DNA of 36,316 nucleotides, taken from the NCBI GenBank assembly GCA_003222635.1, contig QHWQ01000024.1:1-36316 (forward strand), in the 5' to 3' direction. Shown piece by piece: positions 6,038 through 12,772 of this stretch. How positions within the stretch are numbered: the stretch's first letter is position 1; every line of letters begins with the position of its first letter. Under the pieces are notes generated by a model. That model was not told where the DNA came from. It saw only the letters and a list, made by a program, of their open reading frames with translations, and searched no databases. The DNA is from Acidobacteriota bacterium (GTDB lineage: Bacteria; Acidobacteriota; Vicinamibacteria; Vicinamibacterales; UBA2999). The translations under genes were made by a program, and so were the position numbers.

Positions 6038-7315
6038 ATGCGCGTCACCACCCTGCTGGCGCTCCTGTTCCTCCTCGCCGCCGCATCACAGGCCGCGGCC
6101 GCGACGAAGGTCATCAGGTTCGGCAAGTTGATCGACGGCACGGGCCGCGTCATCACGAACGCGGTCGTCATCGTCGAAGACGACCGCGTGCAGCGCGTGG
6201 CAAGCGGCAACGTCCCGATACCGCCCGGTGCCGAGGTCATCGACCTGTCGCCATATACCGGCATTCCGGGACTGATCGATGCCCACACGCACATCACCTA
6301 CTACTGGGACGGCGTGACCACGCCTCGCAGCGAGCCTGCTCGCCATCCGGCGGTCGTCGCCGTTCTCGCGCAGGAGAACGGTCTCAAGGCGCTCGAGGCG
6401 GGTGTGACCACGATTCGAGACCTCAATGCGGCGAACGGTGTCGACCTCGCGATGCGCGATCTCATCAACATGGGAAAGATGACCGGTCCCCGAATGTTCG
6501 TCTCGGGTCCCGCGCTCATGATTACCCGCAGCACCGCTCCGCCGGCGCCGATCGGCCTGCTCGTTGACGGCGTCGACGAGGTCTTGCGCGGAGTACGACA
6601 GGTCATCGCGTCCGGAGCGGACTGGGTGAAGATGCGCGGATCGACCGGCGGCTTCGACGACGTGACACAGTTTCAGACGTTTACGTTCGAGGAGATCAAA
6701 GCGGCGGTGGATGCCACGCACGCCCTCGGCAAGAAGATCGCGATCCATTCGTACGGACCGGCGGCCGCCAGAGATGCCGTTCGCGCCGGCGTCGATTCGC
6801 TGGAGCATGGCGCGGACATCGAGGACGACACGATCGCCGAAATGGTCAGGCGCAACACCTACTACGCGCCGACCATCGATCACAATCAGTACTACCTGGA
6901 GAACGCCGATACCGTCTATCACTTCCCCGCCGGCAGCAAGGAACGGCTTCGCGACTATATCCGCCGCAACGTCGACACGGCGCAGAAGGCGTTCCGCGCC
7001 GGCGTCCGCATCATCATGGGGTCTGACGCCGTGTACAACGGCTGGGGGCTGAATGCGCGAGAGCTCGACTGGTTCGTGAAGATCGGTATGACCCCCGAGC
7101 AGGCGCTGAAAACGGCGACGACGACACCGGCAACGATGCTGGGGATGGAGAAGAGTCTCGGCGCCGTGGCACCGGGCTACCTCGCGGATATCGTCGCCGT
7201 CGAGGGCGACCCGCTGGCCGACATCACCGCGATCTCGAGGCGCGAGCATGTCCGCTGGGTGATGAAGGCCGGGCAGACGGTCGTCGACACGACGAATGGC
7301 CGCGGCGCCCGTTAG
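6038..7315 (+). CDS. Secreted amidohydrolase family protein (imidazolonepropionase-like)
   Basis: Signal peptide, GLIDAHTHITYYWDG metal motif, AIHSYGPAAARDAVRAGVDSLEHG, MGSDAVYNG, GYLADIVAVEGDPL. Confidence 0.92.
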   Translation: MRVTTLLALLFLLAAASQAAAATKVIRFGKLIDGTGRVITNAVVIVEDDRVQRVASGNVPIPPGAEVIDLSPYTGIPGLIDAHTHITYYWDGVTTPRSEPARHPAVVAVLAQENGLKALEAGVTTIRDLNAANGVDLAMRDLINMGKMTGPRMFVSGPALMITRSTAPPAPIGLLVDGVDEVLRGVRQVIASGADWVKMRGSTGGFDDVTQFQTFTFEEIKAAVDATHALGKKIAIHSYGPAAARDAVRAGVDSLEHGADIEDDTIAEMVRRNTYYAPTIDHNQYYLENADTVYHFPAGSKERLRDYIRRNVDTAQKAFRAGVRIIMGSDAVYNGWGLNARELDWFVKIGMTPEQALKTATTTPATMLGMEKSLGAVAPGYLADIVAVEGDPLADITAISRREHVRWVMKAGQTVVDTTNGRGAR

Positions 7316-7446
7316 CGCCGGCGCGTCACCGCGGAAATGTCGCGGTGTTCGAAGCGCGCCAGCAACGCCTCGGCAACCGCTTCGTCGAGCAAGTCCGATC
7401 GCTGCGCATCGGATGGCGCACCGGCAGGATCTCCACCGCCGTAGGG

Positions 7447-8541
7447 TCAGTGCTGCGTCCGATCGTCGATGCGGCCGACCGCAAGATACGCCTTCGCTTG
7501 CGGATTCTGGTCAGGTTGGAAGACCAACTTGACGTGGCTGATCGTTCGTAAGAAGAGCGGCGCTGTTGCCGCATCGCCGCCATCCGGGTTGAGACGGAAG
7601 CCGCCTACCCATGACAGCAGGCCATCGCGCTTCTCAGGAAGGCACATGTCGTGCTCGACGAGATAGTCGAAGAAGCGTGTGTCCTCTGGATCGTCCACAC
7701 GTAACGAGGCCGAGCCTTCCCCGAAGTTGACTTCGATCCCGATCTTTGCCGCGACCTCGCTTCCAACGTCGAGATGAAGCGCACCCCTGTCGCCGAACTG
7801 CAGGAGGTCTCGCCAACGCGACTCGTACGCGTCCTGGGGCCCCGACCACCGCAGTGCGCGGACGACGGCGCGGATGTCGCGAAGCTTCAGGCCTGGAGCG
7901 CAGATGCGGAAGGTGTTGACGGGTCGAGCCAACCAGACGCCAAGCTGCAGGAATGGCACCCTGGGCAACAGTACCCGAAAACACTGCTCCAGCTGGTGCC
8001 GGGCGTCGGCCATGTCGGCGCCCACCGCTTCGAGCACGGCCCGAACGACCCTGCTGCACGCATCGACGGCCGTCCCGTCCGCCGGGCCGGAACGATAAGG
8101 CCCGAACCGCATCGAGAAGAACATCGATGGGGCCGCGACACGAGGAGGTCGCAGACTGTGAACGTCGAATTCCAATGACACTGCGGGGATCGCCCGCGCA
8201 ATGACGGTCTGCCGTTCCGACCACGCCTGCGCAAAACGGCGAAGCCGCTGCCAGGCGTCACTCTCCGGTGAATCGGGAGTCTGCCGGGCCAGGAGCGCTT
8301 CATCGATCGAGATTCCGTGCGTCCGTCGGAGATGGACGCCAAAGTCGGCGCGCGGTGCCGGGTCGCCAAGGCGACATTCGAAGCCTGCGCACTGCCACGT
8401 AGGGAGCACACGGGCGATAGAGAGGATACTCTCCACGTTGTCGCGGCAGACGAGTGCCGGGTCGAGGCGCGGCGCAACCGTCTCGATCATCGTGGCAAGC
8501 TGACATGGTGTCGACATTGTTCCGACTCCGTTCTGCATCAT
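7447..8541 (-). CDS. Uncharacterised protein encoded directly downstream of lanM (lanthipeptide cluster partner)
   Basis: Long ORF; ATG at 8541-8539 overlaps the lanM stop TGA (8540-8538) as ATGA, alternative ATG at about 8518 preceded by GGAG. Features such as GFECRLGD, LQLGVWLARPVNTFRICAPGL and ISHVKLVFQPDQNPQAKAYLAV; family not identified. Confidence 0.75.
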   Translation of the reverse strand: MMQNGVGTMSTPCQLATMIETVAPRLDPALVCRDNVESILSIARVLPTWQCAGFECRLGDPAPRADFGVHLRRTHGISIDEALLARQTPDSPESDAWQRLRRFAQAWSERQTVIARAIPAVSLEFDVHSLRPPRVAAPSMFFSMRFGPYRSGPADGTAVDACSRVVRAVLEAVGADMADARHQLEQCFRVLLPRVPFLQLGVWLARPVNTFRICAPGLKLRDIRAVVRALRWSGPQDAYESRWRDLLQFGDRGALHLDVGSEVAAKIGIEVNFGEGSASLRVDDPEDTRFFDYLVEHDMCLPEKRDGLLSWVGGFRLNPDGGDAATAPLFLRTISHVKLVFQPDQNPQAKAYLAVGRIDDRTQH

Positions 8542-11500
8542 TCCGACGAGGGAGGTTCCAGCACGAGAACGGATGGCACGCGCTCCGGGTGTGCAAGGCG
8601 CAGCAAACCGTAGCCGATACCCGCGAGCCCGGTCATGAGGCCAGGCGTCTCGACGCCCGAAGGAGACCCGCACGAGTACCCGTGGCTGTCGATGTCATGA
8701 AGAATGGCCGCGACGACTTCGCCGATAAGCGTTTCCCAGCGATCGTCATCAATCGTTCGACCGACCTGCAACAGCAGCTCGAGATTGCCGAGATCGCCGT
8801 GACACAGACAGTGGCTGCCGCCCAGCCCGTGAATGACGGTGGTCTCGATCGCAACGTCGATCTCCGCCCGGATCTCCAGGTCGTCGAGTTCCCCTCGCAT
8901 CTGCGTACGCGCCAACCCGATTCCCGCCGCGCCATGACACCACGCGGTCATGGACGGTGTGAGTCCCTTCGCTTTCGCTTCAGCGGCGGCGGAACGCGGC
9001 CGTAGATCGGCCCAGTTGCGCGCCTCCGGCGAAAACAGGCTCCGCTCGTAGGCGATTGCCTCCAATGCCGTGGTCCGAAACCGGTTCTCACCGGTCGTCG
9101 CCGCCAGCCTCAGAAGCGCCCACGCCACGCCCGCAGCGCCGTGTGCGAACCCGGCCAGAGGCGTGGTCACCTTGTCCGGCATCCAACCCACGCCCCGCGA
9201 CATCGGCCGGGCACACCTCACAAGACGCTCACCGCACCGGGTGGCCACCTCCAGCGTCCGCGCGCGCGGCGCGCACGCGTGCAGCGCAAGCAGGCTCCCG
9301 ATGCATCCGGCGGCCCCCTCCACGATATCGAACGCCCTGTCGCCCTCGATCAATGGAGGAAGGATGTCGACGATTCTCTCGGCTTCGGTGAGGAGGTCCG
9401 GCCGGTTCCACAGCGTCCCGAGCTGACACAGCACGTAGATCAATCCGCCCCAGCCGGTGAACGCGCCAACTGCCTGCATCTGCGGCGTATCGATGTTGAC
9501 GCGACGCAGCACCGTGGACAGACCCGTTCGGGCGAGCGCTGTGTAGCGGTCGTCCTCCGTTATGTGTCCGAGGTAGGCGAGGAACAACGCGACGCCTGGC
9601 AATCCTCCGTAGAGGTCCGTGTCGAGCGGCGCGACGGACCAGCGATGTTCGCTGCGTGGGGTCAGCCCGATCCACGAGATGCTCTCGTCACTCCGCAGGG
9701 CAGCCTCGTCAAGCCGTTCTCCGATCACACGGGCAGCTGCCACCGCGGTTTCACGGTCACAGCCCGGCTTCGATCGCCAACAGCGGCCGCGTGCGCGCTC
9801 CGCATGATAGCGTCCGGTGGACAGTGTCGAGAGCGACGCTCTGACGAACCAGCGCTGCGTCTCGAGGTCGTGCGGCGAGAGCGCTTCCACGCGGCGGCGA
9901 ACGCTGGCGAGTGCTGATTCGGGCAGGACATCGGAGATTCGTTCGTGGCGACTGGTCCACAAGTGGCGTGAACCTGGACGCGTCGTGAAGAGCGGAACGT
10001 CGATGTTGTTCAGATCCTCGCGCTCTGCGCGGATGGTGTGTGCGAGGTGGGGCGCATCGCCGATACCGACCCATAAGCGATCGAAGAAACGTTCACGGTC
10101 GATCGCGTCGCGCAACAAGTCGGGGTGGAAGCTGTCCTCGAGCACCTTGGCGTAGATTCGTGTCGGCCGGATGATGACGCGCACTTCGTCGTCGGCGAAT
10201 CGTGCGAGGGGCCCGTCATCCGCCAGGAACTCGGCTCGATTTTCGAGAAGAAGGTCGTAGGTACTCGTGAACCCCGACGCGATCGCCTCGGCGTACTCCA
10301 GGGCGTCGACCTCGACACCGTTCAGGAGTGGCCGATTGACGCCGCCGGGGATCACCACCCGCTTGCGTGTGAACCGCATGGTGTCGGTGCCTGCGTTCTC
10401 CCACTGCGGGACAGCATCCGGCGAGAGCTGCCCGCCAACGGCGCCAATGCCACTGATGTCGATGCCGTCCTGCGTCTCGTCGGACCACACACGCTCGGGA
10501 AGCAGCCCGATCCGCATGACCGAGCGCGACAACGCGTCGTTCGCTGACAGTGCGGTGCTGCCGGCAGCGGTGGAATCGACCCGCGGATGAAAGAGTGCCT
10601 CCAGGTCGAGCAGCATCGGGTGCTCGCCTGCAGCAATCAGGTTTTCGTGATGAAAGTCGGTTGCTTCGAGCGCATACAGCACCGCGATGAAGCTGCCGTG
10701 CCGTTGGAAGAAACGCCGGACTTCGTCCGGCGACGAGCAGCTCGTCCGTCGAACGAACCGAACCCATCCATGGGTGCCTCGATCCAGGATGGGCAGCGTC
10801 TGAAAGGAGGGGTGAGCCCCACGGTCATTGAGCCAGACCAGGAGCTGCTGAAAATGGACATCGACCGCCAGGGATCTGGGCTTGTAGATCACCTCGCAAC
10901 CCGATGCGAATTTCGCGCGCAAGACGGCTCGGCCGCCTCGATGCCGGTCTCCCAGGTTTCCCTCTACTGCCTCGAGAGGGCCTGGATCGGAATCGAGGGC
11001 CAACGCCGTCCGAATGTCTTGCCAATCCGCGCAGAGGTACTGCAGGAATTCCAGGCTGGACGTGACCCAGTTCTCAATGCACACGGTCACCTGGCGTGCG
11101 AGCACCGGATAACTTAGCAGCAGACCAAGTGCTCTTTCGGGGCGGCCAAGGTCGCCGACAAAGCTCTCGAATCGTTCTTCGGGGGTACGTCCGGTCAACG
11201 CACCATTCACGCGAGCCGAATTGAGCTCGAGCACGAGGGTGCGGCTCAAGATCCGAAGGAGCGCGCCTGACAGGCAACCAGCCAGCGACGCTTCGATCGT
11301 GCGTGGGTCGAACGCGCGCCGCGAACGGTTCGCAACCAGCGGCTGCATCCGGCAACGCAAGCGCTCGCAACCCATCCTGATCAGCGGCGCCACGGCGTTC
11401 AGGAAACCGGCCAGCTTCGAATGTTGCAGCGCCTTTGGAAGTGAAGCGGCCAGGACGCCCGCAGCCGGCTGCGCATAGGCAGCAGCGATATCGGTCAGCC

Positions 11501-11801
11501 ACGTGGGTCTGAGCGCCTGCTGCCGGAGCGTGTCAGCAGACATCGCGAGCAGTCGGCGGAATTCGTCCTCTGTTACCCCGTCGGCGCGCAGGCGTTGTTC
11601 GAAGTGGTCGTCCGCGCTGAACGGAGCCTGACTGCGCCACAGTCGCATGTGTCGTTCGCCGAGCTCCTCGTTGCTGTCGATGCCCGCGTCGGAGCGGAGC
11701 AACTCGAGGCGTTCGGTCAGGCTGGTCGCCCGATACCATTCAGGACGCTGGAAATGCTGCACGAGCTCGTCCATCGGTTTGCGCGCAGCGCCCGGGGCCA
11801 A
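8538..11801 (-). CDS. lanM: Class II lanthipeptide synthetase LanM (dehydratase plus LanC-like cyclase)
   Basis: Dehydratase motifs SGCEVIYKPRSLAVDVHFQ, TDFHHENLIAAGEHPMLLDLEALFHP; LanC-like GGLPGVALFLAYLG, GFAHGAAGVAWALLRLA, AWCHGAAGIGLAR and CHGDLGN (Cys, Cys-His zinc ligands). Start ambiguous: TTG 11801 or ATG 11774. Confidence 0.95.
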   Translation of the reverse strand: MAPGAARKPMDELVQHFQRPEWYRATSLTERLELLRSDAGIDSNEELGERHMRLWRSQAPFSADDHFEQRLRADGVTEDEFRRLLAMSADTLRQQALRPTWLTDIAAAYAQPAAGVLAASLPKALQHSKLAGFLNAVAPLIRMGCERLRCRMQPLVANRSRRAFDPRTIEASLAGCLSGALLRILSRTLVLELNSARVNGALTGRTPEERFESFVGDLGRPERALGLLLSYPVLARQVTVCIENWVTSSLEFLQYLCADWQDIRTALALDSDPGPLEAVEGNLGDRHRGGRAVLRAKFASGCEVIYKPRSLAVDVHFQQLLVWLNDRGAHPSFQTLPILDRGTHGWVRFVRRTSCSSPDEVRRFFQRHGSFIAVLYALEATDFHHENLIAAGEHPMLLDLEALFHPRVDSTAAGSTALSANDALSRSVMRIGLLPERVWSDETQDGIDISGIGAVGGQLSPDAVPQWENAGTDTMRFTRKRVVIPGGVNRPLLNGVEVDALEYAEAIASGFTSTYDLLLENRAEFLADDGPLARFADDEVRVIIRPTRIYAKVLEDSFHPDLLRDAIDRERFFDRLWVGIGDAPHLAHTIRAEREDLNNIDVPLFTTRPGSRHLWTSRHERISDVLPESALASVRRRVEALSPHDLETQRWFVRASLSTLSTGRYHAERARGRCWRSKPGCDRETAVAAARVIGERLDEAALRSDESISWIGLTPRSEHRWSVAPLDTDLYGGLPGVALFLAYLGHITEDDRYTALARTGLSTVLRRVNIDTPQMQAVGAFTGWGGLIYVLCQLGTLWNRPDLLTEAERIVDILPPLIEGDRAFDIVEGAAGCIGSLLALHACAPRARTLEVATRCGERLVRCARPMSRGVGWMPDKVTTPLAGFAHGAAGVAWALLRLAATTGENRFRTTALEAIAYERSLFSPEARNWADLRPRSAAAEAKAKGLTPSMTAWCHGAAGIGLARTQMRGELDDLEIRAEIDVAIETTVIHGLGGSHCLCHGDLGNLELLLQVGRTIDDDRWETLIGEVVAAILHDIDSHGYSCGSPSGVETPGLMTGLAGIGYGLLRLAHPERVPSVLVLEPPSSE

Positions 11802-11818
11802 GGTCCGGACCCGGGCGC
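11788..11818 (-). promoter_or_regulatory. Stem-loop between lanA and lanM (candidate attenuator or processing hairpin)
   Basis: GCGCCCGGG (11788-11796) and CCCGGGCGC (11810-11818) are exact reverse complements, 13-nt loop, starting 7 nt after the lanA stop. Confidence 0.6.
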
Positions 11819-11825
11819 CTTGGTG

Positions 11826-12059
11826 TTAACAGACCTCGGGGTTATCGCACCAAGTCGTCGAAATCGATGCGTACTTCGAGCATATGGGAGCAGCATTCAA
11901 CGCTGCCTGCAATTCGGCGTCACTGAGCTCGATTGCGCCCGCGGGATTGCCGTCGGGCCACCGGCTGTCGTTCCGTGCCGGCACATCCGTGATCTCGAAC
12001 CTCGGGTGCGGGATCTGTCGCTCATAAGATTCGGTCAAGCCAGAGCGGTTTTCGATCAT
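11826..12059 (-). CDS. lanA: Lanthipeptide precursor peptide (LanA), mersacidin/lichenicidin-like leader
   Basis: 77 aa; leader segment NPAGAIELSDAELQAALNAA matches the NPAGxIELSDEEL-type class II leader; Cys/Ser/Thr-rich C-terminus ICSKYASISTTWCDNPEVC; GAGGA ribosome-binding site before ATG; immediately upstream of lanM on the same strand. Confidence 0.85.
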   Translation of the reverse strand: MIENRSGLTESYERQIPHPRFEITDVPARNDSRWPDGNPAGAIELSDAELQAALNAAPICSKYASISTTWCDNPEVC

Positions 12060-12164
12060 CGTTCCTCAACTTCCTACGGGCGTTCATCAGGCGATGACGA
12101 CCGTGTCTTGTTAACGCGTGGGAAGGACCCCACCGAACATGCCGTTCGCCCGAGTTCCGCGCCG

Positions 12165-12180
12165 CGTTATAGCTATAGCG
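12165..12180. promoter_or_regulatory. AT-rich palindrome CGTTATAGCTATAGCG in the divergent lanA/methyltransferase intergenic region
   Basis: Perfect inner palindrome TATAGCTATA (12168-12177) flanked by CG/CG, immediately upstream of the methyltransferase ATG (12184). Confidence 0.35.
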
Positions 12181-12183
12181 GTC

Positions 12184-12772
12184 ATGTCACAGAGCGGCCC
12201 CATCGACCTGGATGCGTTCTACTCGTCGCCCTCCCTCGATGTCTGGCGGCAGGTCCTTGGCGAGCGAATGCACTATCACCACGGCATCTGGGAGGCGGAC
12301 GAGGACTGGGATACGGCGCTCGATAATGGCGTTCTGAGCCTCGCCAGCCACGTCGAGCCCGGGGCGACGGTCGTCGATCTCGGATGCGGCTGGGTGGATG
12401 GAATCGTTGGAGCACCTGGAGCGCCCGGATCTGGCACTGGCCAGATTGCGTCCGCGCTGCAACGGGTTGGTGATGCGCGTGAATACGTGTGAAGCCGAGT
12501 CGCGGCGGCTGTTCGCCGGCTCGATGCCGATGCGACCGACCTGTTACTATCTCGACGCACTGAAGAGCGCGGGATGGAGGGTGACATACGTCGCGAATCG
12601 GAGATCCGCGTCTCTGCGCAGTCCATTCGAGTGGCTGGCCAGGCTCGAGGCGGCAGGCGTGGTGGGTTCCGACAATCCGCATCTGCGCGCGCTCTGGGAC
12701 TATTCGATGTTCTTCACGACCAAGCCTTTCATGTACGGCACGTTCCCGCTGATGGACATCGTCGCCGAGTAA
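12184..12772 (+). pseudogene. Class I SAM-dependent methyltransferase with internal deletion and frameshift
   Basis: N-part ends in motif I VVDLGCGW then shifts to VDGIVGAPGAP; the other frame starts MESLEHLERPDLALARLRPR...(typical late-core segment) and runs to a normal C-terminus. The core between the two halves is missing. Confidence 0.75.

Follow-up and report, generated by a model that had tools for sequence, protein, structure and literature searches.

A predicted prenylated class II lanthipeptide locus with an ABBA-type prenyltransferase gene in an Acidobacteriota genome

Sequence comparisons support a class II lanthipeptide reading of the locus described here, whose LanM is intact and whose precursor has a leader of a conserved type. 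It probably makes a prenylated lanthipeptide: LanM would cyclise the precursor and an ABBA-type prenyltransferase would lipidate its core, most likely at Trp70. The locus lies in a stretch of 36,316 nucleotides, called the window below, from a genome assembly of 5.63 Mb in 428 contigs that is 88% complete. A previous sequence-only reading of the window had described three genes on one strand (a 77-aa peptide, a LanM and a gene of unknown function) as a class II lanthipeptide locus. All three open reading frames were found where it had placed them (Table 1), and the class, the synthetase and the precursor stand; a fourth, divergent and broken gene for a methyltransferase had been overlooked.

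Table 1. Features of the locus in the window
Feature	Coordinates	Strand	Basis
lanA	11826..12059	-	77-aa precursor ORF
GC-rich hairpin, lanA stop to likely lanM start	11787..11819	-	fold
lanM	8538..11801 (likely start ATG 11774)	-	TIGR03897, PF13575, PF05147
ABBA-type peptide prenyltransferase (predicted), MppC family, 364 aa	7447..8541 (alternative start 8517)	-	model, fold search, homology, context
SAM-dependent methyltransferase remnant	12184..12772; N-half 12184-12393, C-half 12398-12772	+	tblastn

Precursor and synthetase

The C-terminal region of LanA, ICSKYASISTTWCDNPEVC, carries Cys, Ser, Thr and Trp, with cysteines at positions 60, 71 and 77; Trp70 adjoins Cys71 (in the context STTWC), and the core also holds Tyr63. 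The leader is of the NPAG/mersacidin-like kind and has an L(X)4L motif at L45-L50 (LSDAEL). Small open reading frames upstream of orthologous lanM genes have leaders of the common form DIIRAWKDEEYRNSLSEEQRAQLPENPAGLIELTDAE..GG, and the "NPAG-IELSD" segment is kept upstream of LanM orthologues in cyanobacteria, Acidobacteriota, Chloroflexota and actinomycetes. LanA retains the C-terminal part of this leader (NPAGAIELSDAELQA), including the NPAG-x-IELSD segment; the N-terminal half is unlike that of the orthologues, and their GG motif is NAAP in LanA (which reads ELQAALNAAP). No Gly-Gly or Gly-Ala cleavage motif was found in the LanA sequence.

A profile built from 37 leaders of orthologous loci, with the window peptide left out, scored LanA at 18.3 bits (E=3e-5); the next of the 444 open reading frames in the window reached 6.8 bits, and the best in 40 shuffled windows 10.7 bits. 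The mersacidin/lichenicidin family model TIGR03898 gave 17.7 bits (E=0.0025), and since this lies below its cut-off of 23.5 bits, LanA is termed mersacidin-like only and is not filed as a member. Together the profile score and the weak TIGR03898 match bear out the choice of this Cys/Ser/Thr-rich peptide as the precursor. Conservation of the open reading frame upstream of orthologous lanM genes, on which the sequence-only reading had made its proposal depend, was found for the NPAG leader, so the proposal stands. Two further candidates for relatives of LanA were rejected: tblastn matches on plasmids were at chance level (the Burkholderia one was inspected and is unrelated), and a 13-aa core-like match in Streptomyces (locus L101) was dropped, as it sits within an unrelated frame.

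LanM matches TIGR03897 at 964.9 bits (E=3.6e-290; cut-off 304) and consists of a DUF4135 dehydratase domain (PF13575) fused to a LANC_like cyclase domain (PF05147). The motifs that had been called intact from the letters do align with those of CylM and LicM2: K307 (YKPR), D382/H384/N387 (DFHHEN) and D399 (LLDLE), together with the zinc ligands C955, C1000 and H1001. R541 and T547 align as well. Homologues align from the ATG given in Table 1 rather than from the listed TTG at 11801. By its sequence LanM is an intact, complete class II lanthipeptide synthetase, and it is the sole LANC_like gene in its assembly. Scanning contigs with LanM gave 69 loci; many are 43-53% identical and most cyanobacterial, with others in Pyrinomonadaceae, Chloroflexota and actinomycetes. 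In the LanM tree the window protein branches with LanMs that have NPAG-leader precursors, and not with the NHLP-linked, prenyltransferase-carrying LanMs of its own order. Another family of the order has, near a C39-type ABC transporter, a C-terminal LanM fragment (L040, genome G160, contig 17, 34978-35493) whose identity to the LanM of the window is 53-55%; it looks like the remnant of a related cluster.

The stem-loop reported between lanA and lanM was confirmed: the hairpin is 33 nt long and GC-rich, and a 55-nt stretch folds at -27.7 kcal/mol. A role as terminator is unsupported (the hairpin is without a T run and absent from the terminator-like hits); it is possible that it acts as an attenuator or an RNA-stability element.

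The third gene and its family

The gene that had been left as unknown very probably encodes an ABBA-type peptide prenyltransferase of the MppC family, a prediction that draws on fold and homology and extends to its activity; given this identity, the product of the locus is predicted to be lipidated. Searches of the protein against Pfam, NCBIfam and PDB sequences gave no match, and short matches to mitotic-spindle organizing protein 1 in a PDB profile search were set aside as chance on a helical segment. An AlphaFold2 model made from five sequences (pLDDT 73.8, pTM 0.77) has repeated alpha-beta-beta-alpha units forming an ABBA barrel. Foldseek found 92 matches to this model in the PDB at E<=0.001, and the best 50 of the 92 are all ABBA prenyltransferases. 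The top match is the tryptophan prenyltransferase IptA (7w8y, E=8.9e-8), and among these best 50 of 92 the tryptophan prenyltransferases IptA, PriB and CymD are joined further down by the peptide prenyltransferases PatF, PagF and LimF. TM-scores are moderate, at 0.40-0.54 by query length. Residues near-invariant in 46 homologues are present in the window protein: E55, E124, D126, R212, H336, K338, K350 and Y352. The ATGA overlap with lanM, described earlier as coupling the two genes, is present; since translation could also begin at ATG 8517, which has a GGAG box 8 nt ahead of it, the coupling itself is plausible, not certain.

Homologues are about 20-32% identical and occur in RiPP settings, in Pseudanabaena, Nostoc, Acaryochloris, Azospirillum and members of the same family and order, with a second copy in the window's own genome; a scan of viral contigs found no relatives. 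The majority adjoin LanM, rSAM or C39 genes. The Pseudanabaena homologue, for example, occurs with a LanM and a Nif11 precursor and is fused to a 2OG-Fe(II) oxygenase. Two others (L116 and L117) adjoin squalene-hopene-cyclase-like proteins, which fits the RiPPs with polycyclic isoprenoids of a report that is cited in PMC12715784 and seen here through that citation. In the prenyltransferase tree the window branch is long and its placement is not settled.

Several related clusters have features of their own. The second RiPP cluster of the window's genome (L014, contig 25, about 50.5-65.8 kb) encodes precursors of the NHLP type whose cores contain Trp (QWGD, HRWGD, MTWF). With them are three radical-SAM proteins, one or more of which are B12-binding, a JmjC oxygenase, a prenyltransferase homologue and a C39 transporter. 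In Microseira wollei (L116, 17361-20436) the homologue is apparently split by a transposase-like open reading frame on the opposite strand and immediately precedes a squalene-cyclase-like gene. At L007 (12013-13806) a 2OG-Fe(II) oxygenase follows the prenyltransferase domain as a C-terminal fusion, which suggests that prenylation is coupled to oxidation. A conserved protein of about 600 aa, with no Pfam match, adjoins the prenyltransferase at several loci (L007, 13793-15589; L010, 10226-12019; L197, 3766-5706). Precursors near family members at L010, L142, L146 and L147 end in Trp (KW, GGW, SHW, ETW) and have few or no Cys, so the family seems also to serve RiPPs other than lanthipeptides.

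The link to the mpp cluster of Moorena producens comes through locus L190, from a genome of the family that contains a Coleofasciculus MAG. Its Nif11-like precursor of 84 aa ends in ACWRWSG, equals published MppE in its core and in a leader length of 77, and has L66, L71, C79, W80, W82 and S83 at the published MppE positions (PMC11791876). Its neighbours are a LanM, UPF0489 proteins, an amine-oxidase/squalene-cyclase-like protein and a prenyltransferase homologue. The window prenyltransferase and this Moorena mpp-type protein are 27% identical over 379 columns (full length, E=3e-32), and the family profile recovers the L190 protein at E=8.6e-94. MppC geranylates MppE Trp82 in vitro, after cyclisation and in a leader-dependent manner (PMC12715784), and its Phe340 is a reported contact to the Nif11 leader nucleus. 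The L190 protein has Phe at 340 and no Trp at 336, which could make it a strain variant and not MppC proper.

The window prenyltransferase is without the WP...F segment that carries Phe340 in the L190 protein and that MppC-like enzymes of Nif11 clusters possess. This segment is also absent from three other RiPP-linked homologues (L014, L116 and L117), and its loss is thus not specific to NPAG leaders; since the Phe340 contact is reported for MppC alone, it is treated as a trait of that member and not of the whole family. We tentatively propose, at less than even odds, that the enzyme shifted from RiPPs with Nif11 or NHLP leaders to an NPAG leader, where, lacking the segment that holds the Nif11 nucleus, it would recognise the precursor by its short L(X)4L helix. 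If so, the product would be a multi-ring lanthipeptide with a prenylated Trp beside or within a thioether ring.

Proposed maturation and the prenyl acceptor

We infer the order of steps, the acceptor residue, the prenyl donor and the activity of the product. LanM would bind the NPAG/L(X)4L leader of the precursor and dehydrate Ser and Thr in the C-terminal region SKYASISTT; some of the dehydrated residues would be joined to Cys60, Cys71 and Cys77 as (methyl)lanthionines. The ABBA-barrel prenyltransferase would then add an isoprenoid to the cyclised core. Leader removal and export would be supplied from elsewhere in the genome, or be absent.

Trp70 is the favoured acceptor, with a reasonable margin of doubt. 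With a single leader pattern used to call precursors near prenyltransferase family members, Trp was present in 34 of 38 cores (13 of 15 loci), against 18 of 54 cores (14 of 39 loci) at LanM loci without the prenyltransferase gene; about 8.5 of the 38 would be expected to bear Trp at a Trp frequency of 1.3%. The enrichment is significant by Fisher's test (p=5e-8 by peptide, 0.0018 by locus), with related peptides not being independent and with the comparison partly confounded, since leader types differ between the gene-positive and gene-negative sets. The same lanthipeptide could be prenylated elsewhere (at Tyr63, Ser/Thr, Lys62 or Cys), or the enzyme could act on another peptide, for example one from the second prenyltransferase cluster of the genome. 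Cyanobactin ABBA prenyltransferases do modify Ser, Thr, Tyr, His, Arg and Trp (PMC12715784), Nostoc precursors near a family member (L008) have Tyr and no Trp, and the window core has a Tyr to offer. Set against these points are the prevalence of Trp in the 38 cores and the experimentally shown acceptor of MppC, and the second cluster (L014) owns a prenyltransferase homologue itself; we regard prenylation away from Trp70 as rather unlikely.

Whether the locus still yields a mature product bears on the same proposal. The methyltransferase remnant is divergent from lanA, its halves are in different frames, and about 51 central residues are gone, including part of the cofactor-binding domain. It is 46% and 30% identical to two methyltransferases that lie beside a prenyltransferase homologue in Anderseniella (L107), which find it by tblastn at E=6e-16 (N-half) and 2e-9 (C-half), and no other match at E<=1e-10 turned up in 161 genomes of the order. 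The break can be read equally well from the sequence as a real deletion or as an assembly error; a methylation step may once have been present, its gene now being broken. No exporter or leader peptidase was found near the locus. The window was said to have no LanT or C39 peptidase, and this was confirmed: the genome has two C39 peptidases in all, neither on the contig of the window. The first belongs to the second prenyltransferase cluster (contig 25), the other lies on contig 183, and as the LanA leader has no GG, processing by them is doubtful.

Given the missing cleavage site, the lack of an exporter or peptidase nearby and the broken methyltransferase, the cluster may be decaying, with genes that look intact and no mature product made. 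The locus is also missing from the two other genomes of the same genus that were examined, and in an empty-site comparison the genes flanking it belong to paralogous families without close orthologues in the genus. However, the reading frames of LanM (1087 aa) and of the prenyltransferase (364 aa) are uninterrupted, none of their conserved residues is missing, their codon-position GC is normal, and a methyltransferase is not needed for lanthipeptide maturation. Decay appears rather unlikely on balance, and the cluster is somewhat more likely than not to be still functional. A third alternative, that the third gene has the ABBA fold and a role other than prenylation (leader binding or scaffolding), could appeal to the lack of a sequence-family annotation, the modest TM-scores and pLDDT of its model and the missing leader-contact segment, but is very unlikely in view of the near-invariant positions (Glu, Asp, Arg, Lys, His and Tyr), all of which are kept across 46 homologues, the Moorena mpp-type protein included.

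Comparison with known systems

A prenyltransferase family missed by Pfam and NCBIfam now has a name, and its members stand beside RiPP genes in cyanobacteria, the window's own lineage, Pseudomonadota, Bacteroidota and actinomycetes. Prenylation of Trp becomes a specific prediction for dozens of cryptic clusters, and the enzyme, should a short NPAG leader suffice for it, could offer portable lipidation of lantibiotic-type peptides.

The nearest known system in chemistry is the mpp cluster (MppE, MppM and MppC; PMC11791876, PMC12715784), which has in common with the window locus a class II LanM, a homologous ABBA prenyltransferase, a Trp-containing core and an L(X)4L leader motif. The two differ in that the mpp precursor has a Nif11 leader whereas the window precursor has an NPAG/mersacidin-like one, the LanMs belong to separate clades, the core has one Cys in mpp and three in the window, and the halogenase, arginase and terpene cyclase of mpp have no counterpart in the window locus. 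PatF, PagF and LimF, like IptA, PriB and CymD, have the ABBA fold in common with the third gene by Foldseek, but no sequence similarity to them was detected (Pfam, NCBIfam and PDB profile search).

On the lanthipeptide side, the leader of lichenicidin carries HPAG. The class II lantibiotics of the lichenicidin/mersacidin family (TIGR03898) resemble LanA in an HPAG/NPAG-type leader, and LicM2 (PDB 6ST5) is the nearest solved LanM to that of the window; unlike that family, the window locus has NAAP in place of double-Gly, no LanT protease-transporter and an added prenyltransferase. The NPAG-leader LanM loci of cyanobacteria and Pyrinomonadaceae (L073-L126) have the leader motif in common with the window and LanMs 43-53% identical to its own, and no prenyltransferase was found in those close NPAG-clade loci that were searched. 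A more distant Amycolatopsis vastitatis locus (L100) has a LanM that adjoins a prenyltransferase; no precursor was found on its truncated contig, and it probably lies beyond the contig end. Among the loci searched, an NPAG leader and this prenyltransferase family occur together in the window only. Both chemistries are known, and what looks unusual is the new combination of an NPAG leader, an MppC-family prenyltransferase, this LanM clade and this lineage.
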